This document shows positions 1,672-20,971 of a stretch of 24,952 bases of DNA, piece after piece. The translations under genes were made by a program, and so were the position numbers. Source of the DNA: a virus. The notes beneath the pieces are model-generated. The model worked only from the letters and a program-made list of their open reading frames with translations, was not told the origin of the DNA and ran no database searches. The stretch is taken from positions 1-24,952 of IMG/VR virus record IMGVR_UViG_3300032117_000146. One strand, written 5' to 3'. Numbering within the stretch: the first letter of the stretch is position 1; the number at the start of each line of letters is the position of its first letter.

Positions 1672-1700
1672 ATTAAAACGCTTTTTTGAATAATTGTCAA
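1672..1700 (-). promoter_or_regulatory. Near-consensus sigma-70 promoter for the coat gene, with 5' leader
   Basis: Minus strand: TTGACA (1695-1700), a 17-base spacer, TTTAAT (1672-1677). That is six of six and five of six matches to consensus at ideal spacing. It starts directly after the scaffold stop codon. The resulting leader of about 105 bases (1560-1665) contains an ATCAG-N8-CTGAT hairpin (1641-1658) and a polypyrimidine tract next to the coat ribosome site. The 141-base gap 1560-1700 holds nothing else I can support. Confidence 0.75.
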
Positions 1701-2476: not shown

Positions 2477-4615
2477 CTAGGTTATTTGTGAAAGATTGTC
2501 AGAAAGCACTTGTGACGGATCAAAGTGGCTTAAATCATACTCCTTGCCAGGTTGAGGTGTCCCTTCGATTTCTCTAACGGTTTTATCAGCGATCTTGGAA
2601 AGATCAATCTTGCTGAGTTCGGATAGCAAAGCCTTGACGCGATCGGTCTCAGCCTTGAATGCTTGGATAGAGTCTTGACGCTCATTTTCAAAGCGCAGAG
2701 CCAAGTGATTGAGGGCATCCATATCAAGACGTTGTTTATCAAGCGCCAAATAGGATTGCTTCTCTTGGAGTTGCTCTTGCAATTGCTGGATGATGGCTTG
2801 AGCCTGCTGGAGTTGTTGTTGCAATTGTTGCTCTTGCTCGGATGGCCCAGTACCCAAGATATTTGGAGGAATCCAGTTGCGCATACGCTCCTGTAACTTG
2901 TCAGCATTCGGGAAGTCAGCAGATCCCATATAAAGATCGCCAATAACCTGAGAAAGAGCAGGCTGAGCAGCCAAGAGTTTAGTCATTGCATCAAAAGCCT
3001 CTTGTCTGCGGGTGTCATAGCTTGGCCCAACTTCCGCAACCACGTCATATTTGCCCACATTCGGATTAAAGATGGCAGTAACTCGAGCGTTTTCTTCGTC
3101 CTCAGTCTTTTTCATTGGCTCAGCCAATTCAGGATCAACCATGATCTGACTCTCGGTATTGTCATCGCCAAGGATTCGCACGATTCGCTTGGTGTCATAG
3201 ACTTTAGGGATCAAATCAATAATCATGCGACCAGTCGTTTGAATGGCCATGTTTTGATTGTCTTGGAAGTGATAAGTAACGCGCTCGCCTTGGTTTACGC
3301 GCTTCTCGATCGATATACCTGAAAGCTCTTGGGATTGCTCGCCAAAGGTTTGATCGTATTGACCGGAGGTCATCATCAATTCTTGAGCAGCAGTTGCCAT
3401 GCCTTCCATATAAACAGGAGCGCTTGATGGAGGTTGCTGACGAACTGGTGAAGGAATCGCATTGCCATTCTCATCTGCATGGTTGTATGGCAAATAAGCA
3501 TGGTTCTCAGTATTGGCAGTAGCCCAATAGTTTTCCAAACCTTCGATGGCTTCGACTGGGGCCATGTATGGGGATTTAGATTGCAATGCGCCAAACTCTA
3601 TGGCAGCAGAAGCATTGTAGTTGTAAGCGCGCTGAGCATCCTTCATGTAGCGGATTAAGCCCTTACGATCTAAACGTCCTTCGATAACGACTTCTTCTCC
3701 TGGACAACGAATAATAGGCACATAAGAGCCAGGCCATGTACCCTTCTCAAGCACTTCATCGCCACCAATCAGATACTTTTTGATGGTGCGCTTATCGATT
3801 CTGCGTCTTGTAATTCCTTCCGCGCCCTGACGAATTGCCTCATTAAATAGCTTGCGCTCATCGACAGAAATATCGCTTTCTTTGGCATAGCGCATAGATC
3901 CATCGGGATTCTCAAGGGCATAAAGCCATTCTTTGCGCACTTCAAGCTCGTAGTATTCAGCCAAACGAACCACGTCTTTAGTAATCCACATTTGATTGCC
4001 TGACGGACTTGTGGCCGGCAATTTGAAGTTAGGGAACTTGCGCTCAAACTCTCTGCGAGGCATATCCTCATAGATAAAGCCAAATTTTGCGTCAAGGCCA
4101 TCCTTACGCTTGATATGCGGATCGAGATATACGCTCATCGCATCGGGAACTTCTTTAATGAAGATTTCCTGATCGAAGGTGGAATCGTCAGCGTAGGCAG
4201 TAGTTAGTCTCCAATAACCTATGCCACCGCCAACCATATGCTCGGCAGCAATGTCATAAGCGACTTTGGCATTGGATTTGTATTCAATATGACGAACCAA
4301 TCCCTCGAAGATTTCAGCAGCCTCATAGGTTGCCTCGTCATTAGTTGGGTGAACTTGAACGGATGGCTTATTGGCTTTGAGATTGTTGACAACGTGAAGC
4401 CAATGCGTATGCGTCTTATTGATCGTGAGCATCGGCTGGGTATTTAAATGCCGTCTTGCTTTGACTGACGGCTCCCATTGGTCTTGATTGTCAGAATCAG
4501 CATACAGGAAGCGCATATCTTCGCGATAGCGTTGACGAGTGGCTTGTTCCCAGTTTAGGCAAGCCTGAAAGTTCTCGTATGCACGTTCTATGATGTCTTT
4601 TTCTCTATCTGCCAT
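2477..4615 (-). CDS. Portal protein, P22 gp1-like
   Basis: A 712-residue protein (P22 portal is 725) directly after the terminase. It starts with a helical, charged N-terminus, followed by T-I-N-K-T-H-x-H-W-L-H-V-V-N-N-L-K-A-N-K-P, a pattern typical of P22-type portals. The region around residues 590-640 is a long Q-rich coiled coil followed by a second charged helix, comparable to the C-terminal barrel of P22 portal that projects into the head. The portal dodecamer forms the packaging channel and later the tail attachment site. The start codon is one base after the large terminase stop (TGA-T-ATG), with only a weak ribosome site, so translation is probably coupled. The gene ends eight bases before scaffold. 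Confidence 0.92.
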   Translation of the reverse strand: MADREKDIIERAYENFQACLNWEQATRQRYREDMRFLYADSDNQDQWEPSVKARRHLNTQPMLTINKTHTHWLHVVNNLKANKPSVQVHPTNDEATYEAAEIFEGLVRHIEYKSNAKVAYDIAAEHMVGGGIGYWRLTTAYADDSTFDQEIFIKEVPDAMSVYLDPHIKRKDGLDAKFGFIYEDMPRREFERKFPNFKLPATSPSGNQMWITKDVVRLAEYYELEVRKEWLYALENPDGSMRYAKESDISVDERKLFNEAIRQGAEGITRRRIDKRTIKKYLIGGDEVLEKGTWPGSYVPIIRCPGEEVVIEGRLDRKGLIRYMKDAQRAYNYNASAAIEFGALQSKSPYMAPVEAIEGLENYWATANTENHAYLPYNHADENGNAIPSPVRQQPPSSAPVYMEGMATAAQELMMTSGQYDQTFGEQSQELSGISIEKRVNQGERVTYHFQDNQNMAIQTTGRMIIDLIPKVYDTKRIVRILGDDNTESQIMVDPELAEPMKKTEDEENARVTAIFNPNVGKYDVVAEVGPSYDTRRQEAFDAMTKLLAAQPALSQVIGDLYMGSADFPNADKLQERMRNWIPPNILGTGPSEQEQQLQQQLQQAQAIIQQLQEQLQEKQSYLALDKQRLDMDALNHLALRFENERQDSIQAFKAETDRVKALLSELSKIDLSKIADKTVREIEGTPQPGKEYDLSHFDPSQVLSDNLSQIT

Positions 4616-7933: not shown

Positions 7934-7957
7934 AAAAGACTAGGGTTTCCCCTAGTC
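7934..7957 (-). terminator. Rho-independent terminator with GAAA tetraloop
   Basis: On the minus strand GACTAGGG, loop GAAA, CCCTAGTC: a perfect eight-base-pair stem with a GNRA loop, then C-independent TTTT. It lies five bases past the stop of the 73-residue gene and ends the mini-operon that begins at the 8726-8754 promoter. Its core AGGGGAAACCCT is shared with the post-coat terminator at 322-350. Confidence 0.82.
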
Positions 7958-8665: not shown

Positions 8666-8687
8666 GTTTAACTCCATAAATAGGTGA

Positions 8688-8699
8688 ATTTAGCTAAAT
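8688..8699. repeat. 12-bp palindrome ATTTAGCTAAAT, copy 1 (possible operator)
   Basis: A perfect palindrome about 20-30 bases downstream of the expected transcription start of the 8726-8754 promoter. The same 13 bases, AATTTAGCTAAAT, recur at 12437-12449 inside the Cro-like gene. The location just past a promoter would suit a repressor site; this is inference. Confidence 0.4.
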
Positions 8700-8725
8700 C
8701 CCACCCATTAGGGGTGATTAGCCCA

Positions 8726-8754
8726 ACTATAAATCAAATCAAGGCATTTTTCAA
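8726..8754 (-). promoter_or_regulatory. Sigma-70-like promoter at the end of ninG
   Basis: Minus strand: TTGAAA (8749-8754), a 17-base spacer, TATAGT (8726-8731). Both boxes match consensus at five of six positions. The -35 box lies within the last codons of NinG. The start would fall near 8719, giving a leader with a CACCC-CTAAT-GGGTG hairpin (8701-8715). It would drive the three genes 8665 to 7963, which end in a terminator. Confidence 0.65.
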
Positions 8755-9321
8755 AAGATTTTTTTTCTTCTCTTTGTAGATCCGAATAATCTCTTTTAGA
8801 TCATCAATGGTGTATTTTTTTATCGAATTATCGGACTCCAAAGCCTCGACACGCTCGATGCCAATTCGTTTGATCAATCCAATACGATAGTCAACTGCTC
8901 GCCCAGCTCCCCATCGATTGCATTGCTTGCGCTGGCCATGAGCGTTATCTTCATGGAATCGAAGATGAGGGGCAGATCCAACCGACCGGTAATGGCCACA
9001 ATCAAACGCGCCCCCAACTTCATAAAATCCTAAATCCAATCCGCAACAAATACAGGGTTTACCCTTATCTCTTTCACGAATGTAAGCATTAAACGCGACT
9101 TGGGCTTCACGCTTCCAATCTGACAGGGTTTTGTAGGCTTGTAGGCGCTTTTTGGTTTCAGCACGATCAATCCGTTGCTCTTTGGCTTTTTGCTTTGCTA
9201 TGGCCTGTTTTGCCAACTCTAAGGAGCATTCCACACCGCAAACTGATTGACCAAGGCGCTCTTGCATAAATCTTTCTTTGCAAAATTTGCAGTTTCGCTC
9301 TTTTAGCCTTAGTTTAATCAT
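8734..9321 (-). CDS. ninG: NinG recombination-associated protein
   Basis: A 195-residue protein from the ATG at 9321, whose first codons overlap the NinB stop (ATGATTAA). An upstream ATG at 9360 would lie deep in ninB and is not favoured. The N-terminus has C-K-F-C and V-C-G-V-E-C, a zinc-finger set. The centre has the NinG hallmark A-F-N-A-Y-I-R-E-R-D then P-C-I-C-C-G, followed by D-C-G-H-Y-R-S-V-G and H-G-Q-R-K-Q-C-N-R, an HNH-like nuclease signature. In lambda, NinG (Rap) is a structure-specific endonuclease that acts on recombination branches. Here it follows NinB, as in lambdoid nin regions. The C-terminus is lysine-rich. Confidence 0.92.
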   Translation of the reverse strand: MIKLRLKERNCKFCKERFMQERLGQSVCGVECSLELAKQAIAKQKAKEQRIDRAETKKRLQAYKTLSDWKREAQVAFNAYIRERDKGKPCICCGLDLGFYEVGGAFDCGHYRSVGSAPHLRFHEDNAHGQRKQCNRWGAGRAVDYRIGLIKRIGIERVEALESDNSIKKYTIDDLKEIIRIYKEKKKNLLKNALI

Positions 9322-9703
9322 ATGCAATATCCGAAAATTTAACACCGCGCTCAGCACCAAAAGCCATCATAAGCTCAATAAGCTCGGCCATTTCTGATTT
9401 TGTCATTTTGCTGGTGCGCTGCCCACAAACTACAAAACCGCCATCAATGCCAGGCACTACCTTTTGACTTTTAAGCGATGCAGAAAAGACATCCTTCCAT
9501 TCATCGGATGTAAGTTTATTGCCGTACCAATTGACTTGATCGCTGACCTCGGCAAGCATTGCCCACATTTTTGCATTTTGCTCCAAAGATCGAGTTTTCT
9601 TTTTAATCTCGCAAATCATGTCCTCAGATGCCATTTTTATTGCTTGCATGGCATTTTGTTTGACTTGTGGATTAATCAAAAAAAAGGTTTGCTTATCGCT
9701 CAT
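9314..9703 (-). CDS. ninB: NinB (Orf-type recombination mediator)
   Basis: A 129-residue protein with the NinB pattern: S-L-E-Q-N-A-K-M-W-A-M-L-A-E-V-S near residue 40, then W-Y-G-N-K-L-T-S-D-E-W-K-D-V-F, G-G-F-V-V-C-G-Q-R-T-S-K-M, and a C-terminal A-E-L-I-E-L-M-M-A-F-G-A-E-R-G-V. In lambda, this protein (Orf) binds SSB and DNA and helps load recombinase. The start overlaps the previous gene's stop as ATGA and it overlaps NinG by eight bases. It fits the ERF, Gp157 and SSB-tail genes on the other strand as part of the phage recombination set. Confidence 0.92.
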   Translation of the reverse strand: MSDKQTFFLINPQVKQNAMQAIKMASEDMICEIKKKTRSLEQNAKMWAMLAEVSDQVNWYGNKLTSDEWKDVFSASLKSQKVVPGIDGGFVVCGQRTSKMTKSEMAELIELMMAFGAERGVKFSDIAYD

Positions 9704-9849
9704 ACGATGTCGGAAGTCTGAGAAATACCTTTTGCACGAAGGATTTTGCGTACTTTTCGATAAACACGCTTCAAAATGTCAGCGACTGCTTGATGGCTTA
9801 TTCCTTCAGCTTCGGCAATTTCACGCAATGTCATTGGTTCTTTTGTCAT
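9700..9849 (-). CDS. Micro-protein resembling sigma-70 region 4 alone (second of a tandem pair)
   Basis: A 49-residue protein. T-L-R-E-I-A-E-A-E-G-I-S-H-Q-A-V-A-D-I then L-K-R-V-Y-R-K-V-R lines up without gaps against the E. coli sigma-70 region 4.2 segment T-L-E-E-V-G-K-Q-F-D-V-T-R-E-R-I-R-Q-I followed by E-A-K-A-L-R-K-L-R. That region holds the helix-turn-helix that reads the -35 element. No other sigma region is present. Both ends overlap neighbours as ATGA (with the 52-residue gene and with ninB). Likely roles are a transcription regulator or a DNA-binding cofactor; replacement of the E after I by L is a departure from true sigma factors. By-eye comparison only. Confidence 0.75.
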   Translation of the reverse strand: MTKEPMTLREIAEAEGISHQAVADILKRVYRKVRKILRAKGISQTSDIV

Positions 9850-10004
9850 AGTAAATCCTGTAATTCAATTCCACGATTTTTAAGTTCTTGCTTAAATTTT
9901 TCAATTGCTTGCTTTTCAATAGTAGCTACAGTCTTGTAATTCATAAAAGTTTTTTCTGCCACTTGAACTTGAGTCATTTCATATTGATCTTGTAATTGCC
10001 TCAT
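9846..10004 (-). CDS. Micro-protein resembling sigma-70 region 4 alone (first of a tandem pair)
   Basis: A 52-residue protein. After a short N-terminal helix, T-Q-V-Q-V-A-E-K-T-F-M-N-Y-K-T-V-A-T-I followed by E-K-Q-A-I-E-K-F-K aligns without gaps to sigma-70 region 4.2 and retains the I-E pair and the A-x-x-K pattern of the recognition helix. It is linked by ATGA overlaps to the gene before it and to the second sigma-4-like gene after it. Two such genes in a row immediately before ninB suggest a regulatory pair, perhaps controlling the late promoters at 8726 and 1672. The DNA-binding call is by motif; the regulatory role is inference. Confidence 0.75.
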   Translation of the reverse strand: MRQLQDQYEMTQVQVAEKTFMNYKTVATIEKQAIEKFKQELKNRGIELQDLL

Positions 10005-10183
10005 TTCTCATTAGCCTTTCTTAGTAAAGCCTTAAATGGAATATGCCCTGCAAATATTTTTGATGGACATTCTTTGTGAAGTGCAAGCCATATTTCAAAT
10101 GTCTGTCTTGATGATATTTTGTTTTCATCGTAAAAATCGATGCTAAATTCCGCACCGCATCGGCATTTTGAAGTTATATTCAT
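10001..10183 (-). CDS. Hypothetical 60-residue protein with cysteines
   Basis: It begins MNITSKCRCGAEFSIDF and later has L-H-K-E-C-P. C-R-C-G plus H-x-x-C could coordinate a metal as a small zinc knuckle, similar to short phage zinc-ribbon proteins, although the set is atypical. The stop overlaps the next gene as ATGA, so it belongs to the same translational chain as the sigma-4-like pair. No ribosome site is evident before the ATG at 10183. Family not recognised. Confidence 0.6.
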   Translation of the reverse strand: MNITSKCRCGAEFSIDFYDENKISSRQTFEIWLALHKECPSKIFAGHIPFKALLRKANEK

Positions 10184-10195
10184 TTTTTATTTTTG

Positions 10196-10300
10196 TTAAT
10201 CAAACGGATTTAAATAATCAACACAGTCTAAACAAGACCAAAAAACATATATCACACCAATAATTGACAAAAAAACCAAAAAATAAAATAAATAAGTCAT
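10196..10300 (-). CDS. Small single-span membrane peptide (34 residues)
   Basis: Starts at the ATG at 10300, preceded by GAGG nine bases upstream; longer in-frame starts overlap the previous gene extensively. Residues 3-21 are an unbroken hydrophobic stretch (L-F-Y-F-L-V-F-L-S-I-I-G-V-I-Y-V-F-W), then C-L-D-C and an acidic end. A one-pass inner-membrane peptide is likely. Its coding sequence is very AT-rich. Tiny membrane peptides of unknown role are common in phage early regions; no specific function can be given. Confidence 0.5.
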   Translation of the reverse strand: MTYLFYFLVFLSIIGVIYVFWSCLDCVDYLNPFD

Positions 10301-10304
10301 TTTT

Positions 10305-10685
10305 TTATTCCTCATCTTTGAGCAAAAACTTTGCAATTCGATTGCATATCCATGAATCATCGCCATAGCAATACTCTCTGCAAGGACAGGGTTGAAATTC
10401 TTCATTTTCCAAATTACAAGGTTCTGTCATGGTTTTTTCAATATAAAGCCCTGACTTGACCGCTAAGTCTTGCAGCTCTCCACCGTCCCAATCACTAACG
10501 CATTCATCTCCATGAACCAATATTGGTTTTACAAATTTCTTTAGTTTTTGATTTTCTTCTTCCAACCTTGCAATTCTTTCTATTGCTTGTTGGACGGTTT
10601 TATAAAACTGGTGTCGAGACAATTTATCATTCATAGCCATTTCATATGGCATATTTAAAATTCCATAAAACATAACATCACTCAT
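10305..10685 (-). CDS. Hypothetical 126-residue phage protein
   Basis: I chose the ATG at 10685, because the AAGGGG site lies six bases upstream; the ATG at 10691 would abut that site. The start M-S-D-V-M-F-Y-G-I-L-N-M-P-Y-E-M-A-M followed by K-L-S-R-H-Q-F-Y is a pattern I have seen in uncharacterised small phage proteins of the early region. Residues about 30-50 form a coiled coil (I-A-R-L-E-E-E-N-Q-K-L-K-K). The C-terminal part has E-P-C-N-L and C-P-C-R-E-Y-C, a possible metal cluster. It overlaps the preceding gene at its start. Function unknown. Confidence 0.75.
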   Translation of the reverse strand: MSDVMFYGILNMPYEMAMNDKLSRHQFYKTVQQAIERIARLEEENQKLKKFVKPILVHGDECVSDWDGGELQDLAVKSGLYIEKTMTEPCNLENEEFQPCPCREYCYGDDSWICNRIAKFLLKDEE

Positions 10686-10878
10686 TCCCATCCCCTTTCA
10701 TAAAAGCTAATATTTGATCCCGACTCGGTGCATTCTTGAACCTTGCTATTGATGCAAGCATGATCTCTTGTTTTTTCCGGCTTGGCCTCGCGCTTTTTAC
10801 TAATCTCACACAACAAATAAGGCATGACATATTGAAAATTCCCGATGAACCAAGACATCGTGACGATTCGCATTGCAT
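10678..10878 (-). CDS. Hypothetical small protein, frame uncertain (option A)
   Basis: The competing frame to 10682-10873. It starts at 10878 as a TAATG junction with the DUF6378-like gene and ends inside the next gene's first codons. The first half is unusually rich in S and C (looks like an out-of-frame reading). The second half, I-M-L-A-S-I-A-R-F-K-N-A-P-S-R-D-Q-I-L-A-F-M-K-G, looks like a real helical protein. A short version starting at the internal M before L-A-S-I is possible. Mutually exclusive with option B unless a frameshift joins them. Confidence 0.35.
   Translation of the reverse strand: MQCESSRCLGSSGIFNMSCLICCVRLVKSARPSRKKQEIMLASIARFKNAPSRDQILAFMKGDGNE
10682..10873 (-). CDS. 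Hypothetical small protein, frame uncertain (option B)
   Basis: Two overlapping frames compete in 10678-10878. This one gives 63 residues from the ATG at 10873 and ends with an ATGA overlap into the next gene, a junction used often in this phage. It reads as W-F-I-G-N-F-Q-Y-V-M-P-Y-L-L-C-E-I-S-K-K with a charged second half. An internal ATG at 10858 could also serve. The alternative frame starts with a TAATG overlap at 10878. I cannot decide by composition; both show purine-rich first codon positions. Only one, or a frameshifted hybrid, is likely real. Confidence 0.4.
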   Translation of the reverse strand: MRIVTMSWFIGNFQYVMPYLLCEISKKREAKPEKTRDHACINSKVQECTESGSNISFYERGWE

Positions 10879-11138
10879 TAATCTTCTTTCAATCGATTAG
10901 CAACCAAAGTGGCATATCCAGCAATATCATGCCAATGATCGTGAATATCAGGATTTCCATTAAGGATTCGCGCAACTTTGTGCATGATCATCTCGAGCGC
11001 TTCTTTTTGATCTAATTGAAGATGCAACCAATTACTGTTTTGTTTTAATTGAAATTTTAAGTTTTGTGAAATATTTGCATGATTGACAAATTCTCCATGA
11101 GTTTTTTGACGCTCATTTAATGTTTTATTGATATCCAT
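10878..11138 (-). CDS. DUF6378-like phage protein
   Basis: An 86-residue protein with R-Q-K-T-H-G-E-F near the start and the C-terminal signature Q-K-E-A-L-E-M-I-M-H-K-V-A-R-I-L-N-G-N-P then D-H-W-H-D-I-A-G-Y-A-T-L-V-A. This E-A-L-x-M-I-x-x-K-x-A-R-I, D-H-W-x-D-I-A-G-Y pattern is the one I know from DUF6378 phage proteins, all-helical and distantly reminiscent of MazG-type nucleotide hydrolases. The ATG at 11138 has an AGGA site seven bases upstream. Enzymatic role unproven. Confidence 0.8.
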   Translation of the reverse strand: MDINKTLNERQKTHGEFVNHANISQNLKFQLKQNSNWLHLQLDQKEALEMIMHKVARILNGNPDIHDHWHDIAGYATLVANRLKED

Positions 11139-11153
11139 GATTTGTCCTGATTT

Positions 11154-11306
11154 TTAAAATAATGCATCTTCAAATTGAAATACTGGTTTATTGATCTTTT
11201 TTGCAACAATTTTCCATTCAGGCCTAAGTGAAACCAAATAACGCGCTTCAGTTTTGCTTTTTACCTGACGAATCATGCCCAGCTCATCATAAATGTAATA
11301 AATCAT
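11154..11306 (-). CDS. Hypothetical 50-residue protein
   Basis: Starts at the ATG at 11306, overlapping the P-like gene's stop as ATGA. It reads MIYYIYDELGMIRQV, then K-T-E-A-R-Y-L-V-S-L-R-P-E-W-K and ends E-D-A-L-F. It looks like a compact alpha/beta micro-protein (strand, helix, strand); the phrase E-A-R-x-L-V-x-x-R-P-x-W recurs in tiny phage proteins. The coding frame is uninterrupted and joined by a coupling junction, which supports it. No function is known to me. Confidence 0.65.
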   Translation of the reverse strand: MIYYIYDELGMIRQVKSKTEARYLVSLRPEWKIVAKKINKPVFQFEDALF

Positions 11307-11695
11307 CGGCCAAATCCCCTGGTGAATTCTTTTAATTTTGCAAGAGCTTCTTCTTTTGCTTTTATTCCTGCTTGAATCTCTGCCTGTGTTTTTTGTTGAG
11401 TCAATGTTCTTTCAGGTTTAACTGGAATACGTCCGGCTTGCCTGCATAGATCTCTAAACGCAATAGCCGAAGGCACAAACGATTTATCCATCGATTTAAG
11501 GGCAAAGTCCAAAGTAGGTTTGTAAGTCGCGTAAACCCCCAGCATTTCCTTCCAGGTTGCCCTTACAAGACTTAAATCAACTCCATCCCAATGTCTTGTA
11601 AAAGCCCCGCCATAAATTGCGCCCATTTTGCCAAAAATGTAATCAAGGCCATTGTCGGCAGTTGTGAAATCACTCTCCAAGTAATCCAACATCAT
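11303..11695 (-). CDS. Replication protein P-like (putative helicase loader)
   Basis: From the ATG at 11695, just after a strong GGAGGAGGAA site; an ATG three bases on could also be used, and a TTG at 11707 is less likely. About 130 residues, with G-K-M-G-A-I-Y-G-G-A-F-T-R-H-W-D, A-T-W-K-E-M-L and F-V-P-S-A-I-A-F-R-D-L-C-R-Q-A-G. This resembles phage replication P-type proteins, where the segment L-P-S-P-x-x-F-x-x-W-C occurs near the end and the protein loads host DnaB helicase. It lies directly after the DUF1376 initiator, the same order as lambda O-P. Its first 26 bases overlap that gene. The P assignment is by position and weak pattern. Confidence 0.55.
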   Translation of the reverse strand: MMLDYLESDFTTADNGLDYIFGKMGAIYGGAFTRHWDGVDLSLVRATWKEMLGVYATYKPTLDFALKSMDKSFVPSAIAFRDLCRQAGRIPVKPERTLTQQKTQAEIQAGIKAKEEALAKLKEFTRGFGR

Positions 11696-12368
11696 TTCCT
11701 CCTCCAATTAAACCTCTGGTCAAGCCTTTCAAAACTGTTGAATTACGATTTTCTGCTGGTACTGTTACTTTTACCCATTCAGCTTTAAATCCTCTCCAAC
11801 CCCTAGCAGCGCATTCAGCCAATGCTTGCTCCAAAGTCCATCCAGCTTTTTGAGCTTCTTTTGCAATTGATTTCAATACATTTTCAGAAATAACTGCGCG
11901 CGCTTTTTTTCTTTGAGCAACAAAATCATTCCAAATTTCAATTGATACCCCTTCAGGGGCTTGTATTGTTTTTATATGGTTCTTGGTTATTGGTTCTTGG
12001 TTATTGGTTACGTTCTGATCCGGTTCTGATTTCAGTTCTGATTTCAGAGCAGATTTCTTTTCTGATTTGATTCTGTTTGCGTTGCGAGCTGAGTCTGCTT
12101 TCACGCGATACTTGGCAATTTCATCATCACATCGCTTGGAAACCCATAAATCGTCAATTTTTTCAAAAAACATTTCCAAAATGTATTGCACGTCAGAGCT
12201 GAAATCAGACATTCCAATTCTTCTAGCAATAAAAGATGGCTCGCCTTTTAATGGGCATTCATCTAAGTAATATTGATCAATTAGCCTGCGATAAGCCAAA
12301 TCTTCCATAAAACTAAGATGCCTAGTATGAGCTGCATAATCCCCAATATGAAACGGGTAAAAGTTCAT
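11670..12368 (-). CDS. DUF1376 replication initiation protein (lambda O-like position)
   Basis: A 232-residue protein. Residues 1-85 form the DUF1376 domain, with M-N-F-Y-P-F-H-I-G-D-Y at the start, then H-L-S-F-M-E-D-L-A-Y-R-R-L-I-D-Q-Y-Y and the winged-helix-like segment to about residue 90. A low-complexity linker (about 97-135, repeats of K-S-E-x and N-N-Q-E-P-I-T) follows. The C-terminus has W-N-D-F-V-A-Q-R-K-K-A-R and G-W-R-G-F-K-A-E-W-V, typical of these proteins. It should bind the phage origin and recruit P. The linker DNA holds two sets of tandem repeats, so the origin may lie inside the gene as in lambda O. Start ATG at 12368 with AGAGGA; one base separates it from the Cro-like stop. 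Confidence 0.85.
   Translation of the reverse strand: MNFYPFHIGDYAAHTRHLSFMEDLAYRRLIDQYYLDECPLKGEPSFIARRIGMSDFSSDVQYILEMFFEKIDDLWVSKRCDDEIAKYRVKADSARNANRIKSEKKSALKSELKSEPDQNVTNNQEPITKNHIKTIQAPEGVSIEIWNDFVAQRKKARAVISENVLKSIAKEAQKAGWTLEQALAECAARGWRGFKAEWVKVTVPAENRNSTVLKGLTRGLIGGGNDVGLLGE
11977..12010. repeat. Tandem 14-bp repeat in the replication gene
   Basis: TGGTTCTTGGTTAT occurs perfectly twice (11977-11990 and 11991-12004), followed by a partial third copy. It encodes the N-Q-E-P-I-T-K-N linker on the minus strand. Similar linker repeats are found in DUF1376-type proteins, so the repeat may be only protein low complexity. Confidence 0.7.
12013..12071. repeat. Tandem 12-bp repeats (candidate origin iterons)
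   Basis: TTCTGATTTCAG occurs perfectly at 12024-12035 and 12036-12047, with imperfect copies at 12013, 12048 and 12060, so about five units in one phase. On the minus strand they encode K-S-E/A-L/K. The central position in an initiator gene is where lambda carries its origin iterons. Confidence 0.6.
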
Positions 12369-12369
12369 T

Positions 12370-12570
12370 TCAGTCCTCTTTGAATAGGTCTGGTCGCAAA
12401 ATTTCTTTAGTTAATCTGCCTTCCGAAAGTTCCCTTAATTTAGCTAAATGTTTAATTGGAATATGACCGCGATCTGCCCAGTTGTAGATTGCAGTTGCAC
12501 GAATGCCTAAAATTTTGGCAAGTCGCGTTAATGTGCCGAATTCGGCTTTTAAAAGCTCAAGTTGATGCAT
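12370..12570 (-). CDS. Cro/YdaS-like helix-turn-helix regulator
   Basis: A 66-residue DNA-binding protein, from the ATG at 12570, with a strong AAGGAGG site; the longer frame to 12600 lacks one. Helices 1-45 include F-G-T-L-T-R-L-A-K-I-L-G-I-R-A-T-A-I-Y-N-W, a classic helix-turn-helix where the second helix (A-T-A-I-Y-N-W) is followed by the G-H-I-P turn. The C-terminus, L-S-E-G-R-L-T-K-E-I-L-R-P-D-L-F, is the YdaS/Cro-type ending in lambdoid regulators. It is the first gene of the minus operon beside the divergent control region, where its operator probably lies (12681-12696). The 12-bp palindrome also lies within its coding sequence. Confidence 0.85.
   Translation of the reverse strand: MHQLELLKAEFGTLTRLAKILGIRATAIYNWADRGHIPIKHLAKLRELSEGRLTKEILRPDLFKED
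12437..12449. repeat. AATTTAGCTAAAT palindrome-containing repeat, copy 2
   Basis: Identical 13 bases to 8687-8699; contains the perfect 12-bp palindrome. This copy lies inside the Cro-like gene. It could be chance in AT-rich DNA or a binding site. Confidence 0.35.
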
Positions 12571-12588
12571 AAATCCTCCTTTTTCAAA

Positions 12589-12617
12589 ACTATACCACAA
12601 TAAAATGATATTTTAAG
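12589..12617 (-). promoter_or_regulatory. Promoter for the Cro-like gene (extended -10)
   Basis: Minus strand: TATAGT (12589-12594) with a preceding TGG (extended -10, TGn), a 17-base spacer and a weak -35 CTTAAA (12612-12617). The start would be near 12582, a short leader carrying the AAGGAGG site. It reads into cro, the replication genes and beyond. Confidence 0.6.
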
Positions 12618-12662
12618 AATATAAACTAGGGAAAGCACCTATAAAATAATTACATAAAAGTG

Positions 12663-12690
12663 TTGCTAAGTGGTTTTATTGGTGTATAGT
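12663..12690 (+). promoter_or_regulatory. Promoter for the plus-strand recombination operon
   Basis: TTGCTA (12663-12668), a 16-base spacer, TATAGT (12685-12690). The -10 lies inside an inverted repeat, so a repressor bound there would block RNA polymerase. It faces the ERF operon. The 137-base gap 12601-12737 holds this promoter, its mirror for Cro and the operator, and no gene. Confidence 0.6.
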
Positions 12691-12696
12691 AACACC
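12681..12696. promoter_or_regulatory. Candidate Cro operator, GGTGT-N6-ACACC
   Basis: A perfect inverted repeat with five-base arms (12681-12685, 12692-12696) overlapping the -10 of the plus promoter. A related half, GTGTTGCTA, lies nearby at 12660-12668, compared with GTGTTACTA in this operator's reverse strand. Size and spacing suit a small helix-turn-helix dimer. Confidence 0.55.
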
Positions 12697-12737
12697 CATG
12701 CAGTAAATTTTTTAAACAAGTGATGAAGGAGAAAGTG

Positions 12738-12818
12738 ATGAAAAAAGCAATTTTTGAATGGATCGGGGTAATCATTCTTGGAATCATCTTGGGCGCGATG
12801 TTCGCTTGGGGGTTTTAA
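12738..12818 (+). CDS. Tiny single-span membrane peptide (26 residues)
   Basis: Starts at the ATG at 12738 with an excellent AAGGAG site six bases upstream. The sequence is short, begins MKKAIFEWIGVIILGIILGA and ends with a W-G-F. Residues 5-25 are hydrophobic with a basic N-terminus, so a one-pass inner-membrane peptide is likely. It is the first product of the plus-strand operon. Early phage peptides of this type can alter host membranes or host proteins. Function not known. Confidence 0.6.
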   Translation: MKKAIFEWIGVIILGIILGAMFAWGF

Positions 12819-12820
12819 TT

Positions 12821-13108
12821 ATGATAATGAGCCGACACGATGCCTACTACGAGCCTGAAGACTACGATGATCGCACAGACGAGATCGAGGAACGCACCTG
12901 GCAATTAATGAAAAAAGAATACAACCCAAAAACTTCTATAGCAATTGCAGAAGCGCTGAGTGAATTAGAGGTTGATACCGCGCAATCCCTTCAAGACGCG
13001 ATCGATACCGGTGATTATGAGCAAATTGGCAGAAAAATCATGGCCATTTCTTTTGATTACCAAGAATCACTAGCCAAGCAAGTTGCTGAGTTTGAAATTA
13101 ACGATTAA
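12821..13108 (+). CDS. Hypothetical 95-residue acidic protein
   Basis: From the ATG at 12821, eight bases after a GGGGG stretch; a second ATG at 12827 is possible. The longer reading upstream coincides with the membrane peptide in another frame and is not real. The start is very acidic (Y-Y-E-P-E-D-Y-D-D-R-T-D-E-I-E-E), followed by amphipathic helices (S-I-A-I-A-E-A-L-S-E-L and S-L-Q-D-A-I-D-T-G-D-Y). Strong negative charge in early proteins can mimic DNA, but nothing specific supports that. It lies directly before the ERF gene. Family not recognised. Confidence 0.7.
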   Translation: MIMSRHDAYYEPEDYDDRTDEIEERTWQLMKKEYNPKTSIAIAEALSELEVDTAQSLQDAIDTGDYEQIGRKIMAISFDYQESLAKQVAEFEIND

Positions 13109-13116
13109 GGAAACCC

Positions 13117-13770
13117 ATGAAAGTCTATCAAGCAATTAATGCAGTTCAAGCCGAATTAGCAAAAGTCGGTATCACCAAAAGCCGAACCAACCAACAAGGC
13201 GCATCTTACAAATTTAGGGGGATTGACGATGTTTTCAACACAGTCAGCCCTTTAATGGCCGAGCATGGCCTTTGTATCCTTCCAAGGGTTTTGACAAGGG
13301 AATGCGTAGAACGTCAAACCAAAGCGGGGGGAGCAATTTTCTATGTTACGGTTGAAGTAGAGTTTGATTTCGTATCGGCAGAGGATGGCTCAAAACACAC
13401 CGTCAAGACCTTTGGTGAAGCGATGGACACATCGGACAAAGCAACCAACAAGGCAATGTCAGCAGCCTACAAATACGCAGCATTGCAGGCTTTTGCGATT
13501 CCGACCGAGGGTGACAATGACGCAGACTTGCATACCCATGAAGTCGCTCCAAAAGCTAAACCAGCAACGGTTCAAAAAACCCCATTGTCAGAAAATCAAG
13601 TTTCAGACTTTGTGATTTCAATAATGGATAGCGACACGCTCGATGCTTTAAAGATTAATCACGCAACCGCTTATAAGTTAGCTTTTGCACAAAATGATAC
13701 TTCCGCGATCAAGAAGATTGATAGCGCAAAGGACATTCGCAAAGGCGAATTGATGGCCACTCAAGCATAA
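13117..13770 (+). CDS. erf: ERF-family single-strand annealing recombinase
   Basis: A 217-residue protein with the ERF hallmarks: K-F-R-G-I-D-D-V-F-N-T-V-S-P-L-M-A near residue 32, then G-E-A-M-D-T-S-D-K-A-T-N-K-A-M-S-A-A-Y-K-Y-A and F-A-I-P-T-E-G-D-N-D-A-D. This family anneals complementary single strands in phage recombination, and helps circularise phage DNA in P22. A linker follows, then a helical C-terminal part of unknown function. It has an AAGGAAA site before the ATG at 13117. It is followed by Gp157 and a SSB-tail protein, the usual recombination module. Confidence 0.95.
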   Translation: MKVYQAINAVQAELAKVGITKSRTNQQGASYKFRGIDDVFNTVSPLMAEHGLCILPRVLTRECVERQTKAGGAIFYVTVEVEFDFVSAEDGSKHTVKTFGEAMDTSDKATNKAMSAAYKYAALQAFAIPTEGDNDADLHTHEVAPKAKPATVQKTPLSENQVSDFVISIMDSDTLDALKINHATAYKLAFAQNDTSAIKKIDSAKDIRKGELMATQA

Positions 13771-13779
13771 GGAATCAAA

Positions 13780-14283
13780 ATGACCGATTTAACCCTTTAT
13801 ACAATCGCTGACCAATATTTGCAAGATATTCAAAAGTTGCAAGATATGGATTTGGACGAGCAAACCTTTGCTGATACTTTGGAAAGCCTATCCGGTGATT
13901 TAGAAGTCAAAGCAACCAACGTGGCTATGTTTGTTCGCAACCTAGAGGCAAGCGCAGAATCCATCAAAGCAGCAGAAAAACAGATGGCAGAGCGCAGAAA
14001 AGCCATCGAAGCCAAAGCCGAACGAATTAGGAATTATCTTAAAGACAACATGGCTCGGACAGGAATTACTAAGATTGATTGCCCATACTTTGCGCTTAGT
14101 TTGCGCAATAGCCCACCAGCAGTTGAAGTAATCAATGCCGATGAGATTCCAGCGCAATACTTTGATATTCCTGAACCCCCAGCTCCAGTTTTAAACAAAA
14201 ATCGCTTAAAAGATGACCTTAAAAATGGGGTTATTGTTGAAGGCGCTCGATTAACCCAAGGCAGTTATCTTCAAATCAAATAA
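13780..14283 (+). CDS. Siphovirus Gp157 family protein
   Basis: A 167-residue protein with the Gp157 pattern: L-Y-T-I-A-D-Q-Y at the start, E-Q-T-F-A-D-T-L-E-S-L-S-G-D-L-E-V-K-A-T-N-V, a coiled coil with A-E-K-Q-M-A-E-R-R-K-A-I-E, and Y-L-K-D-N-M-A-R-T-G-I-T-K-I. The C-terminal half has P-x-Y-F-D-I-P-x-P-P-A-P-V-L-N-K, another family feature. Members are associated with phage resistance to host restriction and with recombination modules. Here it follows ERF with an AAGGAA site. The biochemical role is not well settled. Confidence 0.9.
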   Translation: MTDLTLYTIADQYLQDIQKLQDMDLDEQTFADTLESLSGDLEVKATNVAMFVRNLEASAESIKAAEKQMAERRKAIEAKAERIRNYLKDNMARTGITKIDCPYFALSLRNSPPAVEVINADEIPAQYFDIPEPPAPVLNKNRLKDDLKNGVIVEGARLTQGSYLQIK

Positions 14284-14291
14284 GGACAATC

Positions 14292-14552
14292 ATGGCAATT
14301 AAATTCTATATCAATGCTGCAGTTTCAGAATTCGAAGGCAACGATGGCAAAAGCAAAAGACGCTATCAAACCATTGGGGTTATTGTTGAGACACGTCACG
14401 GACTCATGCTTAGCCTTGAATCAATCCCATTGTTAGGGCTTAAAGATGGCAAATTATTGGCATTTTTAAATGAACCAGGCGAAAAGAATGCTGATCAGAA
14501 TCAGCAAACTTCAGCAACCGAATCAAATCTTGATGATCAAATTCCATTTTAG
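14292..14552 (+). CDS. Small protein with SSB-like C-terminal tail (DDQIPF)
   Basis: An 86-residue protein. The first 60 residues look like a compact beta-fold (I-K-F-Y-I-N-A-A-V, R-R-Y-Q-T-I-G-V-I-V-E-T then G-L-M-L-S-L-E-S-I-P), comparable in size to a minimal OB-like domain. A disordered N/Q/S linker ends L-D-D-Q-I-P-F, nearly the acidic peptide (D-D-x-I-P-F) by which bacterial SSB recruits partner proteins. It may be the phage's single-strand binding protein or a decoy that draws host SSB partners. The ATG at 14292 follows an AAGGAC site; the recombination module ERF-Gp157-SSB-like is typical. No specific family recognised. Confidence 0.7.
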   Translation: MAIKFYINAAVSEFEGNDGKSKRRYQTIGVIVETRHGLMLSLESIPLLGLKDGKLLAFLNEPGEKNADQNQQTSATESNLDDQIPF

Positions 14553-14561
14553 GAGAATACG

Positions 14562-15032
14562 ATGAACCAAAAAGAATTAAATGAAATTTTTAAATATGAG
14601 AATGGAAATCTTTATTGGAATATATCGAAAAAAGGAATCAAAAAAGGCAATAAAGCTGGAGCAATAAGCGAAAAAGGTTATTTAGTAATTAAATTAAATC
14701 AAAAAACTTATTACGCTCATCGTATTATTTTTATGATGTTTCATGGATATATGCCAAATCAATTGGATCATATAAATGGCATAAAAAACGATAACCGAAT
14801 TGAAAATTTAAGAATTGCGACTCATGGTCAAAATCAACAAAACAGAGGAATGTTTAAAAACAATTCTACTGGAGTAAAAAACGTAACTTTTGAAAATGGA
14901 AAATGGAGGGTTAGATTAGGAATAGATGGAAAAAACAAGCATTTTGGATCTTATTTTGATATTAACGTAGCCAAATTTGTAGCTGAAATGATTAGGAATA
15001 AATACTATGGCAACTTTGCAAGAAATGTATAA
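14562..15032 (+). CDS. HNH homing endonuclease with AP2-like C-terminus
   Basis: A 156-residue protein. The HNH motif is Y-Y-A-H-R-I-I-F-M-M-F then L-D-H-I-N-G-I-K-N-D-N-R-I-E-N-L-R, followed by an AP2-like DNA-binding segment (G-V-K-N-V-T-F-E-N-G-K-W-R-V-R, G-x-Y-F-D-I-x-x-A-K-F-V-A). The full gene (no deletion) suggests an active element. Its coding sequence is clearly richer in A and lysine codons than its neighbours. It sits in a tight operon, with its ribosome site overlapping the previous stop. Such genes spread by cutting alleles that lack them. An 18-codon frame at its end is discussed separately. Confidence 0.93.
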   Translation: MNQKELNEIFKYENGNLYWNISKKGIKKGNKAGAISEKGYLVIKLNQKTYYAHRIIFMMFHGYMPNQLDHINGIKNDNRIENLRIATHGQNQQNRGMFKNNSTGVKNVTFENGKWRVRLGIDGKNKHFGSYFDINVAKFVAEMIRNKYYGNFARNV

Positions 15033-15059
15033 AGAATATCGTTGCATCGGGAGAACCGT

Positions 15060-15233
15060 ATGAGGGATTATTCTGAAGTGCTTATTGAGCTAGACGCGCA
15101 AATCAAAAAAATGCACGTTTGCAGCTTAAAAGAAGATTGGAAAGGGGCAAGCAAAGAAGCAGCGCAAGCCCATACCCTGACCAATGAATTAGCAGTAATT
15201 TTTAGAACCCTGAAAGGAAAGAAAAATGATTAA
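15060..15233 (+). CDS. Hypothetical 57-residue helical protein
   Basis: From the ATG at 15060, preceded by GGGAG; an in-frame TTG at 15042 is less likely. It starts M-R-D-Y-S-E-V-L-I-E-L-D-A-Q-I-K-K-M and continues with W-K-G-A-S-K-E-A-A-Q-A-H-T-L-T-N-E-L, all helical. It ends eight bases into the next gene (ATGATTAA). Similar short helical proteins occur in phage early operons. No function recognised. Confidence 0.65.
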   Translation: MRDYSEVLIELDAQIKKMHVCSLKEDWKGASKEAAQAHTLTNELAVIFRTLKGKKND

Positions 15234-15438
15234 CCTCGTACTTGAGAATGATGAATTTAATTTTGTAGTTGGCTTGGTAGGAAAAGAGCCATTTAATAAC
15301 GTGGCCGGCTTAATGGGTAAATTGATCCAGCAAGCCCAAGCGCAACAAATGGCACAAGCACCAGTAGCGCCACCCGCACCAACGACATCTCCTGCACCTG
15401 GCGATCAAGCTGGTTTAATAGAGCAAAACGTACAGTAA
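15226..15438 (+). CDS. Hypothetical 70-residue protein with Q/A/P-rich tail
   Basis: A short ordered part (I-N-L-V-L-E-N-D-E-F-N-F-V-V-G-L-V-G-K-E-P-F-N-N-V, given with breaks) precedes a low-complexity Q/A/P-rich C-terminus. The first 35 residues have a pattern (L-x-E-F-x-x-I-V-G-L-x-x-x-P-x-x-x-V-x-x-L-x-x-K-L) met in small phage proteins of recombination regions. Its start overlaps the preceding gene by eight bases. Function unknown. Confidence 0.65.
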   Translation: MINLVLENDEFNFVVGLVGKEPFNNVAGLMGKLIQQAQAQQMAQAPVAPPAPTTSPAPGDQAGLIEQNVQ

Positions 15439-15440
15439 TC

Positions 15441-15917
15441 ATGCCAAGACTTCGCCATGAAACTTATACGTTGATGGATGAAATTATGTCCAGTCCGACT
15501 GTCTCCATATCCGATGACAGGAGAACTTATCAGCTTACTTTGCTATATCAAGCATTGGCAGCTTTAAAACTAGATCCTCAACCGACTAAGTACGATTGGC
15601 AAGTCTGCTCTGATTGCGTCAATTTGATGGAAACCCTGATTCTTGAGATGAAAGTCTGCCAGGATCAGGACAACCTACTTAATGACGCAACAATGGCCTT
15701 GGTTCGAGCAGGAAAGCGCAAAAAAGATGGAAACAATATCAGACTAGATGCCGAAGGAATAAAAGCCCTACAAGCGCTTTTTGAGGACTATGCTGAGCTT
15801 GTGGCCATCTTGCCCGAGCGCGTAATGGTGAAGTGCTTTCGATTAACAGAAAAGCGCATTCAAGACCTTAGAAAAGGCAAAAAGAAAGCGCATGACGTGG
15901 AGATTATGGAGTTATGA
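15441..15917 (+). CDS. Hypothetical 158-residue protein
   Basis: Two bases after the previous stop, with no clear ribosome site. Mostly helical: L-M-D-E-I-M, L-L-Y-Q-A-L-A-A-L-K-L and W-Q-V-C-S-D-C-V-N-L-M-E-T-L-I-L-E-M, then a long charged segment with A-L-V-R-A-G-K-R-K-K-D-G and R-L-D-A-E-G-I-K-A-L-Q-A-L-F-E-D-Y-A. Comparable proteins occur in phages of beta-proteobacteria without assigned function. A regulatory or DNA-associated role would be speculation. It ends with an ATGA overlap. Confidence 0.75.
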   Translation: MPRLRHETYTLMDEIMSSPTVSISDDRRTYQLTLLYQALAALKLDPQPTKYDWQVCSDCVNLMETLILEMKVCQDQDNLLNDATMALVRAGKRKKDGNNIRLDAEGIKALQALFEDYAELVAILPERVMVKCFRLTEKRIQDLRKGKKKAHDVEIMEL

Positions 15918-16144
15918 CCAAGAATGACCGCAGCCTTTTAAAGCAAATGATTGAAGCTGGACGATTTAATTTTGATATTTATGAGCTTTTGGTTGAGCAA
16001 AATGCCATCAATGCCAAAGAATCAATTAAAAAAATGGGTGAAAAATGGTGTTGTCATCCAGCAAATAAAGTAAAAAGACTTGAGATGCCTTTGCCGATCT
16101 TAAGCGACATGAGAGCGAGCAAGATCTTAAAAACACGCAAATAG
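15914..16144 (+). CDS. Hypothetical 76-residue protein
   Basis: The start overlaps the previous stop as ATGA. It opens M-T-K-N-D-R-S-L-L-K-Q-M-I-E-A-G-R-F-N-F and has a central W-C-C-H-P-A-N-K, then a basic end (K-I-L-K-T-R-K). The lone C-C pair does not form a usual zinc site. No family recognised; the coupling supports it as a real gene of the operon. Confidence 0.6.
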   Translation: MTKNDRSLLKQMIEAGRFNFDIYELLVEQNAINAKESIKKMGEKWCCHPANKVKRLEMPLPILSDMRASKILKTRK

Positions 16145-16153
16145 GCCAATAAA

Positions 16154-16321
16154 ATGACAGACGCATATAAATTAGCTGATAGACTTGAAGAACTTTATAT
16201 GGATTTGCATATCATGGAAGCAGCAAAAAAATTAAGGCAATTGCAAAGCCAGCTTGATAAAATTGAAAAGGGAATAGTTAATCAGGCGCAACAGGATGGC
16301 ATAAGCGAGGATTTTTCCTGA
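16154..16321 (+). CDS. Hypothetical 55-residue coiled-coil protein
   Basis: Starts at the ATG at 16154, nine bases after the previous stop. It reads M-T-D-A-Y-K-L-A-D-R-L-E-E-L-Y-M, then A-K-K-L-R-Q-L-Q-S-Q-L-D-K-I-E, an amphipathic helical heptad pattern, and ends E-D-F-S. The ribosome site is weak (AGG). The 54-base gap after it carries only a short palindrome and the ribosome site of the lipoprotein. Function unknown. Confidence 0.55.
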   Translation: MTDAYKLADRLEELYMDLHIMEAAKKLRQLQSQLDKIEKGIVNQAQQDGISEDFS

Positions 16322-16375
16322 TTTCATACTCGTATGTAGCAATGCCCAAATGTTTATTCCCACCTGGAGATAATA

Positions 16376-16783
16376 ATGAGCAAACCACCAAAACGCGATG
16401 AAAGACGCAAAACAAGAGAAAACAAGCGCTATCCGTTTAAATTAATTCCTATTTTGTTTTTGTCAGGATGCAGTTTAATGATCGGCAATTATGATCCGCT
16501 TGAATATGGTTTGGTCAATAGAATAAGAACCGAAGCACAAGTATCAGATTGCTCAAAACAAAGCACTTATGTCATATATGTAAGCGCTTTAGAATTAAAG
16601 AATTACAGTCAATATTTGCCAAATAATGATCAAGAGATTGCGCTAGTTGATGATCTTTACAAAATAGTTGATCAGCTTTATACATTCAAAAGCCCCAGCG
16701 CAGCATATTGCAAGGCCAAATTAAACATAATCGAAACTACTGCTGAGCGCATTCAGCAAGTTACAGGGAGCAAACCAAGATGA
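16376..16783 (+). CDS. Putative phage lipoprotein
   Basis: A 135-residue protein with a very basic N-terminus (about 20 residues of K and R), then the hydrophobic F-K-L-I-P-I-L-F-L-S-G-C-S. L-S-G-C is a lipobox, so the cysteine near residue 32 would be lipidated after signal peptidase II cleavage. The mature part has two more cysteines (D-C-S-K, Y-C-K-A) and is mostly helical. The long basic n-region and short hydrophobic core are unusual for a lipoprotein. A GGAGA site precedes the ATG at 16376. It might act at the envelope, for example in superinfection exclusion; that is inference. Expressed from the early strand, apart from the lysis cassette. Confidence 0.7.
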   Translation: MSKPPKRDERRKTRENKRYPFKLIPILFLSGCSLMIGNYDPLEYGLVNRIRTEAQVSDCSKQSTYVIYVSALELKNYSQYLPNNDQEIALVDDLYKIVDQLYTFKSPSAAYCKAKLNIIETTAERIQQVTGSKPR

Positions 16784-16992
16784 ATATTAGTGATTTATAC
16801 AAAGAAGCAAAATCTTACAAGATGATGCTAGAAAACCAATCAATTGATCAATATGAGTTTAAAGATTTGATTGAAAGTTTAAAAATTGCGGATCAGATCA
16901 AAGAAAATGCCGATGAATTTAGCAAGAATCAAGAAATCAGAGATTATTTGATGACCTTGTATAACTTGGCAAGTGCTATTTCAAGCCTTTAA
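16780..16992 (+). CDS. Hypothetical 70-residue helical protein
   Basis: Start overlaps the lipoprotein stop as ATGA, so they are probably translated together. Composition is helical and acidic: Y-K-E-A-K-S-Y-K-M-M-L-E, D-L-I-E-S-L-K-I-A-D-Q-I and L-Y-N-L-A-S-A-I-S-S-L. No membrane segment. The last gene of the plus operon, it overlaps the end of the minus-strand zinc-finger gene by 17 bases, with no terminator visible between them. Function unknown. Confidence 0.6.
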   Translation: MNISDLYKEAKSYKMMLENQSIDQYEFKDLIESLKIADQIKENADEFSKNQEIRDYLMTLYNLASAISSL

Positions 16993-17191
16993 TTTTTGCG
17001 ATTCTTTCATAGCGCTGATATTCATCTCGACACCAAGCATCACAAAATCTTTTTGAATCTTCTAAGCGTTCATTGCAAGTTAAGCAAAAACCAGTAATTT
17101 TAAGTTCTTTCTTTTGTAATCTAGCTTTGGCAAGGGCAACAGATCGATGATGCTCTTCTAAATCGCTTGCATCGTCAAAAATGTCGCTCAT
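16976..17191 (-). CDS. Small zinc-finger protein
   Basis: Read from the ATG at 17191, overlapping the endolysin stop as ATGA; the longer frame to 17275 lies inside the endolysin gene and is not favoured. 71 residues. After an acidic start (M-S-D-I-F-D-D-A-S-D-L-E-E-H-H), G-F-C-L-T-C-N-E-R-L-E-D-S-K-R-F-C-D-A-W-C holds four cysteines (C-x2-C-x10-C-x3-C), a treble-clef-like zinc site related in pattern to the DksA/TraR C4 finger. DksA-like phage proteins modulate RNA polymerase. Being at the end of the lysis operon is unusual for a regulator. Family by pattern only. Confidence 0.75.
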   Translation of the reverse strand: MSDIFDDASDLEEHHRSVALAKARLQKKELKITGFCLTCNERLEDSKRFCDAWCRDEYQRYERIAKIKGLK

Positions 17192-17634
17192 GCCAATTTT
17201 GAAATAAACATTGCAGCCTCTGCTTCTCTGCGTTTTAACAAGCCAGCCATATGATGACCGGCAGCCATATCCCATTTAATAAACTCATGTGATGCGCCCT
17301 CATAATCGCCAGCATTTAGCTTCTTCATAAGAGTTGATGAGTCTAAATTGCGACATCCACAATTGAATGCGAAGTCCACAAGCGCGTCAAATTCTTCTTG
17401 GGTTAACTCTACATGAACTACCGCATTGACGTTCGCCTCGGCTTGTTTAATGTCTTGAGCAAGGTATTGCTCTGCCTGTTCTTGAGTAATTACTAATCCA
17501 TCAACAACTTCAGGGCCAGTATGACCATAGCCAATAGTCCAAGGATCACCCCAACTTCCAGGATCGGGGTAGGCACTAAGTCGGCAACCTTCAAAACGCT
17601 CTGTAAGATGTAAGCCATTTTTTGAATATTCCAT
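17188..17634 (-). CDS. Endolysin, GH24 T4-type lysozyme
   Basis: A 148-residue lysozyme that cuts the glycan strands of peptidoglycan. The catalytic triad of this family is visible: E15 (F-E-G-C), D24 (Y-P-D-P) and T33 within W-T-I-G-Y-G-H-T. Downstream it has L-T-Q-E-E-F-D-A-L-V-D-F-A-F-N-C-G and A-G-L-L-K-R-R-E-A-E, both typical of GH24. No signal peptide or SAR segment exists, so export must depend on the holin candidates upstream in the same operon. The ATG at 17634 shares a base with the spanin stop (TAATG), and its end overlaps the zinc-finger gene. Confidence 0.95.
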   Translation of the reverse strand: MEYSKNGLHLTERFEGCRLSAYPDPGSWGDPWTIGYGHTGPEVVDGLVITQEQAEQYLAQDIKQAEANVNAVVHVELTQEEFDALVDFAFNCGCRNLDSSTLMKKLNAGDYEGASHEFIKWDMAAGHHMAGLLKRREAEAAMFISKLA

Positions 17635-18723: not shown

Positions 18724-18724
18724 A

Positions 18725-18904: not shown

Positions 18905-18923
18905 TCTTATTTTTCCTTTTTAA

Positions 18924-18952
18924 ATTATTATTTTTGATGCAAAACTTGTAAA
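18924..18952 (-). promoter_or_regulatory. Possible promoter of the lysis cassette
   Basis: Minus strand: TTTACA (18947-18952), a 17-base spacer, AATAAT (18924-18929), each five of six to consensus. The region is very AT-rich, so chance matches are likely. It lies just before the ribosome site of the first lysis gene. No terminator is visible between it and the tailspike stop at 19006. Confidence 0.45.
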
Positions 18953-19005
18953 CCCTCAAAATATTTAACTATTTGTTTTTTTAATAATTTAATGTATAAA
19001 TATTT

Positions 19006-20868: not shown

Positions 20869-20896
20869 GTTTGATACCCTCTTTCAGTTCATCCAA

Positions 20897-20916: not shown

Positions 20917-20971
20917 ATTCTTATTTGTTGCTTGTTCCTATAACTTCATTATCAATTTCAAAAAAGCCTTT

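Follow-up and report, generated by a model that had tools for sequence, protein, structure and literature searches.

The window, by which we mean the whole stretch of 24,952 bases from a freshwater phage (an IMG/VR virus record) that was analysed, carries on its minus strand two consecutive and very small genes, here called P1 and P2, in a run that leads into ninB and ninG:

10001-10183, minus strand: upstream gene of 60 aa, ATGA-coupled to P1 (open reading frame)
9846-10004, minus strand: P1, a 52-aa sigma-4.2 micro-protein of P1 type (open reading frame, family profile, shuffles, AF2, RpoS alignment)
9700-9849, minus strand: P2, a 49-aa sigma-4.2 micro-protein of P2 type (open reading frame, PF04545, AF2, purifying selection)
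9314-9703, minus strand: ninB, ATGA-coupled to P2 (PF05772 E=3.4e-50, phrog_72 E=6e-42)
8734-9321, minus strand: ninG, downstream of ninB (PF05766 E=3e-54, phrog_171 E=6e-78)

The open reading frame coordinates agree with the preliminary description of the locus, in which genes of 52 and 49 residues were joined by ATGA to each other and to ninB; a third ATGA overlap on this strand joins P1 to the 60-aa gene, which has no match in Pfam or PHROG. Between P2 and its counterpart in L009 there are 9.5 synonymous changes against 2.5 nonsynonymous ones, and between P2 and that of L006 there are 6 against 0; from such codon changes the P1 and P2 types are both under purifying selection. P1 and P2 are real genes, selected and homologous to each other.

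Both proteins match region 4.2 of sigma-70. P2 does so directly, through PF04545 (E=8.5e-5, 22.4 bits, profile positions 19-50 of 50), just under the Pfam cut-off of 24.1 bits; P1, also under the cut-off, is marginal when searched alone against Pfam (E=0.081) and is found at E=7e-7 by a profile of 14 P2-type proteins (members from viral contigs and one cultured record) run over all open reading frames of the loci fetched by then. Against profiles from which the protein under test had been left out, each scores above all of 20,000 shuffled versions of its own sequence, and each is recovered by the profile of the other type. Among their relatives, the P2-type proteins of L022 and L023 reach 27.1 bits, over the cut-off, and the P1-type protein of L040 reaches 42.8 bits; a match over the cut-off is present in 7 of 12 whole records, and PF04545 is the best or near-best Pfam model in all tested members, several of which exceed its cut-off. 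The region 4 match is beyond chance, and P1 and P2 are paralogues, members of an unnamed family of phage micro-proteins for which Pfam, PHROGs and NCBIfam yielded no model of its own.

The preliminary description, which had assigned both proteins to region 4.2 with an I-E pair in P1 and I-L in P2, holds on these points, as it does in finding regions 1-3 absent: there is nothing but a piece of region 4 in either protein. Its further statement that each is just a region 4 stands as far as isolation goes and fails as to completeness, the proteins consisting of 4.2 and a C-terminal tail only. The helix-turn-helix (HTH) of region 4.2 that marks the sigma-70 family is present by PF04545, family profiles and AF2 models alike. 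Region 4.1 (H1-H2) is absent, wholly or for the greater part, in all members, profile matches starting at position 16-19 of 50 and running to 50 in every case, so that region 4 is represented by its last two-thirds only; and region 2, responsible for core binding and -10 recognition, is absent from P1 and P2, which end at 52 and 49 aa and are unmatched by models of the other domains.

In sigma-70, H3-turn-H4 reads the -35 box, and the beta-flap is touched by residues in or near H1, H2 and H5, the last of these being a hydrophobic/acidic last helix (PMC2988021). Profile searches of PDB aligned RpoS nearly to the end of the query, whereas alignments to RpoD and SigA mostly stopped near position 34. 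For L040, eight RpoS chains came first, aligned over residues 7-52 and as far as the RpoS C-terminus, and an NCBIfam RpoS model covers this protein to its end (2.4e-8). P1 and the other members listed align without a gap to the last 43 residues of RpoS, and P2 does so with one extra residue; in 21 of 22 members the tail by itself aligns to the RpoS C-terminus better than its shuffles do (p 0.02 or less). The conserved tail is KGIKLEDLL-like, or G[IL]xx[EQ]xL[LF] in the comparison with RpoS. P1 has the 4.2 core and a terminal G[IL]xx[EQ]DL[LI]-like tail in full, and P2 has them with a diverged tail, KGISQTSDIV, that includes the extra residue. Since the tail aligns to the RpoS C-terminus, P1 and P2 keep H3, H4 and an H5-like helix without H1-H2. 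We infer that this tail works as H5, and that RpoS, not some other sigma factor ending in a tail of this kind, is the ancestor of these proteins. A 132-aa phage open reading frame in L197 (3752-4150) is a C-terminal piece of RpoD comprising regions 3-4 (TIGR02393 E=2e-29) and ends in VSLEDLL; it may represent a stage between complete sigma factors and the micro-proteins.

AlphaFold2 predicted for both monomers a pair of confident helices arranged as an HTH, followed by a short final helix, with the row from the cultured-phage collection left out of the inputs. The helices span residues 12-19, 23-43 and 48-51 in P1 (mean pLDDT 85.6; HTH core about 10-43, tail 44-52) and 8-15, 19-39 and 45-48 in P2 (mean pLDDT 85.2; HTH core about 6-39, tail 40-49). 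The Foldseek and VIA-align lists for these models consist mostly of chains of sigma region 4; at a length of ~50 residues the scores are modest, as is to be expected, and none of the Foldseek matches has an E-value under 1; sigma-S tops the structural match list for P2. AlphaFold and profile searches of each protein, the check suggested at the outset, returned HTH folds with sigma region 4 as the best structural match, and P1 and P2 are predicted to fold as H3-turn-H4-H5.

The residues that would read DNA are a different matter. In sigma-70, R584 and E585 make contact with the promoter at -31 and -33, and the E585Q change loosens specificity (PMC2613000). At the positions of R584, E585 and R588, P2 has H, Q and A and P1 has Y, K and A, so that the -35-reading residues of the sigma-70 family are found in neither. 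H-Q in place of R584-E585 is shared by nearly all P2-type members, with SHQ conserved within the type, and P1 types have Y-K, T-K, E-K or others. Because these three residues are replaced in both proteins, the earlier proposal that P1 and P2 read canonical -35 boxes is not supported, and the TTGACA and TTGAAA boxes of the window are not obvious targets. Given a recognition helix so replaced, unlike that of sigma-70, the sequences indicate that the P1 and P2 types most likely each read sites of their own; a helix conserved within the P2 type, and unlike those of sigma-70 and the P1 type, is what one would expect of a protein that reads a DNA site of its own.

The boxes in question belong to two candidate promoters, listed here with a hairpin that lies between the first of them and the packaging genes:

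8726-8754, minus strand: candidate promoter after ninG, TTGAAA-N17-TATAGT, from a scan, unchanged in seven sister contigs
7938-7957, minus strand: terminator-like hairpin, an 8-pair stem and then TTTT
1672-1700, minus strand: candidate promoter before the capsid gene, TTGACA-N17-TTTAAT, read from intergenic 1560-1700

Both promoters, at 8726 and 1672, can be read where they had been placed, the one at 8754-8726 being conserved in the seven sister contigs; as a class, promoter-like sites show no excess (19 observed against 18.9 in shuffled DNA). The non-coding stretch after ninG (8678-8733), which includes a sigma-70-like promoter, the repeat CACCCCTAATGGGTG and the palindrome ATTTAGCTAAAT, is nearly unchanged in the same seven contigs. 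This palindrome is perfect and occurs at 8688 and again at 12438, the second copy inside a cro-like coding region.

An operator for P1 or P2 was sought among shared 8-10-mers and dyads in the intergenic DNA of 12 carriers. The first shared motif, TCATGGCA, was put down to Met-Ala start codons that the stretches contained. A second, TAGGG-N4/5-CCCTA, shows an eightfold over-representation in carriers and frequently lies before an operon with a member gene, so that it first resembled a P operator; it was dropped as a target because it is common in relatives without the gene, being present in 30 of 75 such control loci fetched by exonuclease and in 20 of 75 fetched by replication protein. No target DNA for P1 or P2 was found in this search, the best shared repeat being equally frequent in relatives that lack the genes. 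Sites of this form occur at 7941-7954 in the window, in the hairpin 7957-7938, at G006 1545, G014 14143, G030 31091, G042 4241 and L254 5986, and at many other places; in related phages with or without P1 and P2 they fall in the gaps that follow the exonuclease gene and in regions of divergent early promoters. The element probably serves early control or termination in this phage group rather than as a P target, and is possibly a repressor/Cro operator or terminator element of the group.

In scans of viral contigs, P2-type genes were found in about 54 contigs and P1-type genes in about 17. Members are mostly free-standing, of 47-60 residues, and sit in early operons beside recombination and replication genes. 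In a sister phage (L008 4731-5012) the open frame of P2 is 44 residues longer upstream. Proteins of 80-87 aa in L036-L039 and L042-L050, in which a cysteine-rich N-terminal half (CxxxC...DCRxW...NCTxIAIYNN) precedes sigma region 4.2, are a related but separate architecture. A tblastn search of cultured phages with P2 gave one good match and a direct one with P1 gave none, a search of plasmids found no member, and a scan of bacterial genomes yielded no free-standing member, its hits being five sigma factors and a long protein without relation to the family (L127). A single annotated case came to light, cnrH (MW202753.1), which bears the name of a sigma factor. In the window's clade, all nine contigs whose ninB is near-identical have P2 ahead of ninB, as does L007, and in most of them other small genes take the place of P1; a NinB-anchored scan found no member beside ninB below about 91% NinB identity, and the P2-ninB link is specific to this clade. 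Among relatives fetched with an exonuclease of carrier phages, 75 of 80 have no member gene in the locus DNA examined, as is the case for 75 of 79 fetched with a replication protein of carriers. With a member in only about 9 of 159 control loci, two of which are this same virus, the gene is accessory.

Two members occur together in five viruses, namely this virus, L007, L162, G014 and G042, and most members are alone. The pairs are adjacent in this virus and L007, one gene apart in L162, and about 1.7 kb apart, within one early operon, in G014. The heterodimer that had been proposed would be favoured, in an obligate form, by this proximity and by the translational coupling of P1 and P2 here; the P2 type, however, stands alone in G006, G008, G011, G013, G029, G030, G036 and G049 and the P1 type in G019, G021, G023 and G026, though such records may be fragments, G042 carries two P2 types at opposite ends of the record, and P2 is kept without P1 within the window's own clade. 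Because so many long relatives have only one type, obligate pairing is not supported, and we consider it most improbable.

Models of the Q antiterminator (PF06530, PF03589, phrog_79) have no match at E<=0.5-1 in the window (G000) or in G001. The latter, from the same virus, is identical to the window over 8904-24952 and 1-127, with 7,177 further bases between (G001 16050-23226); the window is therefore incomplete, and the virus genome is suggested to be a circle or permuted, of about 32.1 kb; by size and order, the genes in the missing 7,177 bases look structural. That no Q protein is seen in the window, as first described, thus holds by these models and extends to G001 with the missing 7.2 kb. 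It had been suggested that P1 and P2 form a late-gene switch in its place, which would have RNA polymerase from the post-ninG promoter pass the hairpin at 7957-7938. A Q family match is indeed lacking in this virus, promoter and hairpin follow ninG in the right order, and phage 21 Q, encoded like its counterparts at the end of lambdoid early operons, has in H3-H6 a sigma-4 fold with HTH (PMC6606751). At 49-52 aa, however, P1 and P2 are far shorter than Q models (phrog_79 has 156 positions), and three carriers of members (G008, G012, G013) also have, just before the late genes, a separate protein with a fuller sigma-4-like C-terminal half:

G008 18453-18860: 134-135-aa region-4 protein
G012 9144-9551: 134-135-aa region-4 protein
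G013 3392-3841: 134-135-aa region-4 protein
(also L022 4081-4485 and L023 5500-5907)

This protein has weak matches only, to ECF sigma models (TIGR02937 E=0.0027) and phrog_19609, and is a candidate late regulator. Because the gene is missing from the DNA examined in 75 of 80 and 75 of 79 relatives, members of L029 and L164 lie in the opposite early operon, and a separate 135-aa protein is present, a substitute for Q is not supported by these data, and we think it very unlikely.

We hypothesize instead, as a reading with an even chance of being right, that P1 and P2 are accessory DNA-binding modulators of transcription made early, and neither sigma factors nor an essential late switch. Each would represent the C-terminal 43-48 residues of an RpoS-like sigma factor, comprising the 4.2 HTH and a short hydrophobic/acidic last helix, and would be made early from the early operons. 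The altered recognition helix may bind specific DNA sites of its own and not the TTGACA box, and the proteins probably act as dimers or with a partner, since the hydrophobic face normally covered by H1-H2 in a sigma factor would be exposed; transcription from particular phage or host promoters could be raised or lowered as a result.

A conserved H5-like tail would also fit a protein acting on RNA polymerase, and because of this tail the main rival to DNA-bound modulation is a flap-bound mimic of sigma region 4. The tail would sit on the beta-flap tip and replace host region 4, as T4 gp33 does, and the HTH would pick a new upstream DNA element or block the normal one, redirecting or inhibiting the host holoenzyme. 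Conservation of the tail in both types, its alignment to the RpoS C-terminus, the flap contacts of sigma-70 residues in or near H1, H2 and H5 (PMC2988021) and the precedent of gp33 as a phage flap-bound sigma-4 mimic (PMC2988020) all argue for such a role; yet H1 and H2, and much of the flap-binding surface, are absent, and we regard the mimic as possible but doubtful. It is tempting to go further and speculate that one or two of these units are minimal sigma-4 substitutes, a DNA-reading hook and a flap-touching last helix, diverting host RNA polymerase towards phage promoters that carry a new upstream element, though we think this rather unlikely.

Region 4 is known as a module within sigma factors and larger regulators such as phage 21 Q, and sigma-4-like domains in phage regulators are no novelty; what appears to be new is a family of nothing but H3-H4-H5, sometimes doubled, of which we found no instance in the literature searched. 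Proteins of ~48 residues, conserved as a family, would reveal how small a part of a sigma factor can function by itself, and their minute size makes them probes, simple to test, for flap binding and for DNA specificity.

One of the closest known systems is RpoS (sigma-38), whose last 43 residues, including the tail, align end to end with the micro-proteins; P1 and P2 differ in having neither regions 1-3 nor 4.1 and in the replacement of the -35-reading residues, and of sigma-70 region 4 as modelled by PF04545 they hold only positions 16/19-50 of 50. YlxM/UPF0122, which also has a sigma-4-like HTH, is the top NCBIfam row for P2 (E=2e-5), but P2 falls outside that family, with 24.6 bits against a cut-off of 80, only 30 model residues matched, and 19.8 bits against 22.7 for the Pfam UPF0122 model. 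Phage 21 Q and its relatives have in common with P1 and P2 a sigma-4 fold with HTH, whereas P1 and P2 are only a third as large and without the remaining helices, and no Q model is matched in this virus. T7 Gp5.7 is likewise a very small, HTH-like phage protein (7 kDa); it modulates promoters of the host RNA polymerase, is required for optimal growth only, and differs in its fold, reported to be a winged HTH (PMC5569994). T4 gp33 is, like P1 and P2 in the rival reading, small, encoded by a phage and viewed as a mimic of sigma region 4 (PMC2988020); it is without sequence similarity to sigma factors, whereas P1 and P2 have such similarity and keep the DNA-reading part rather than H1-H2.
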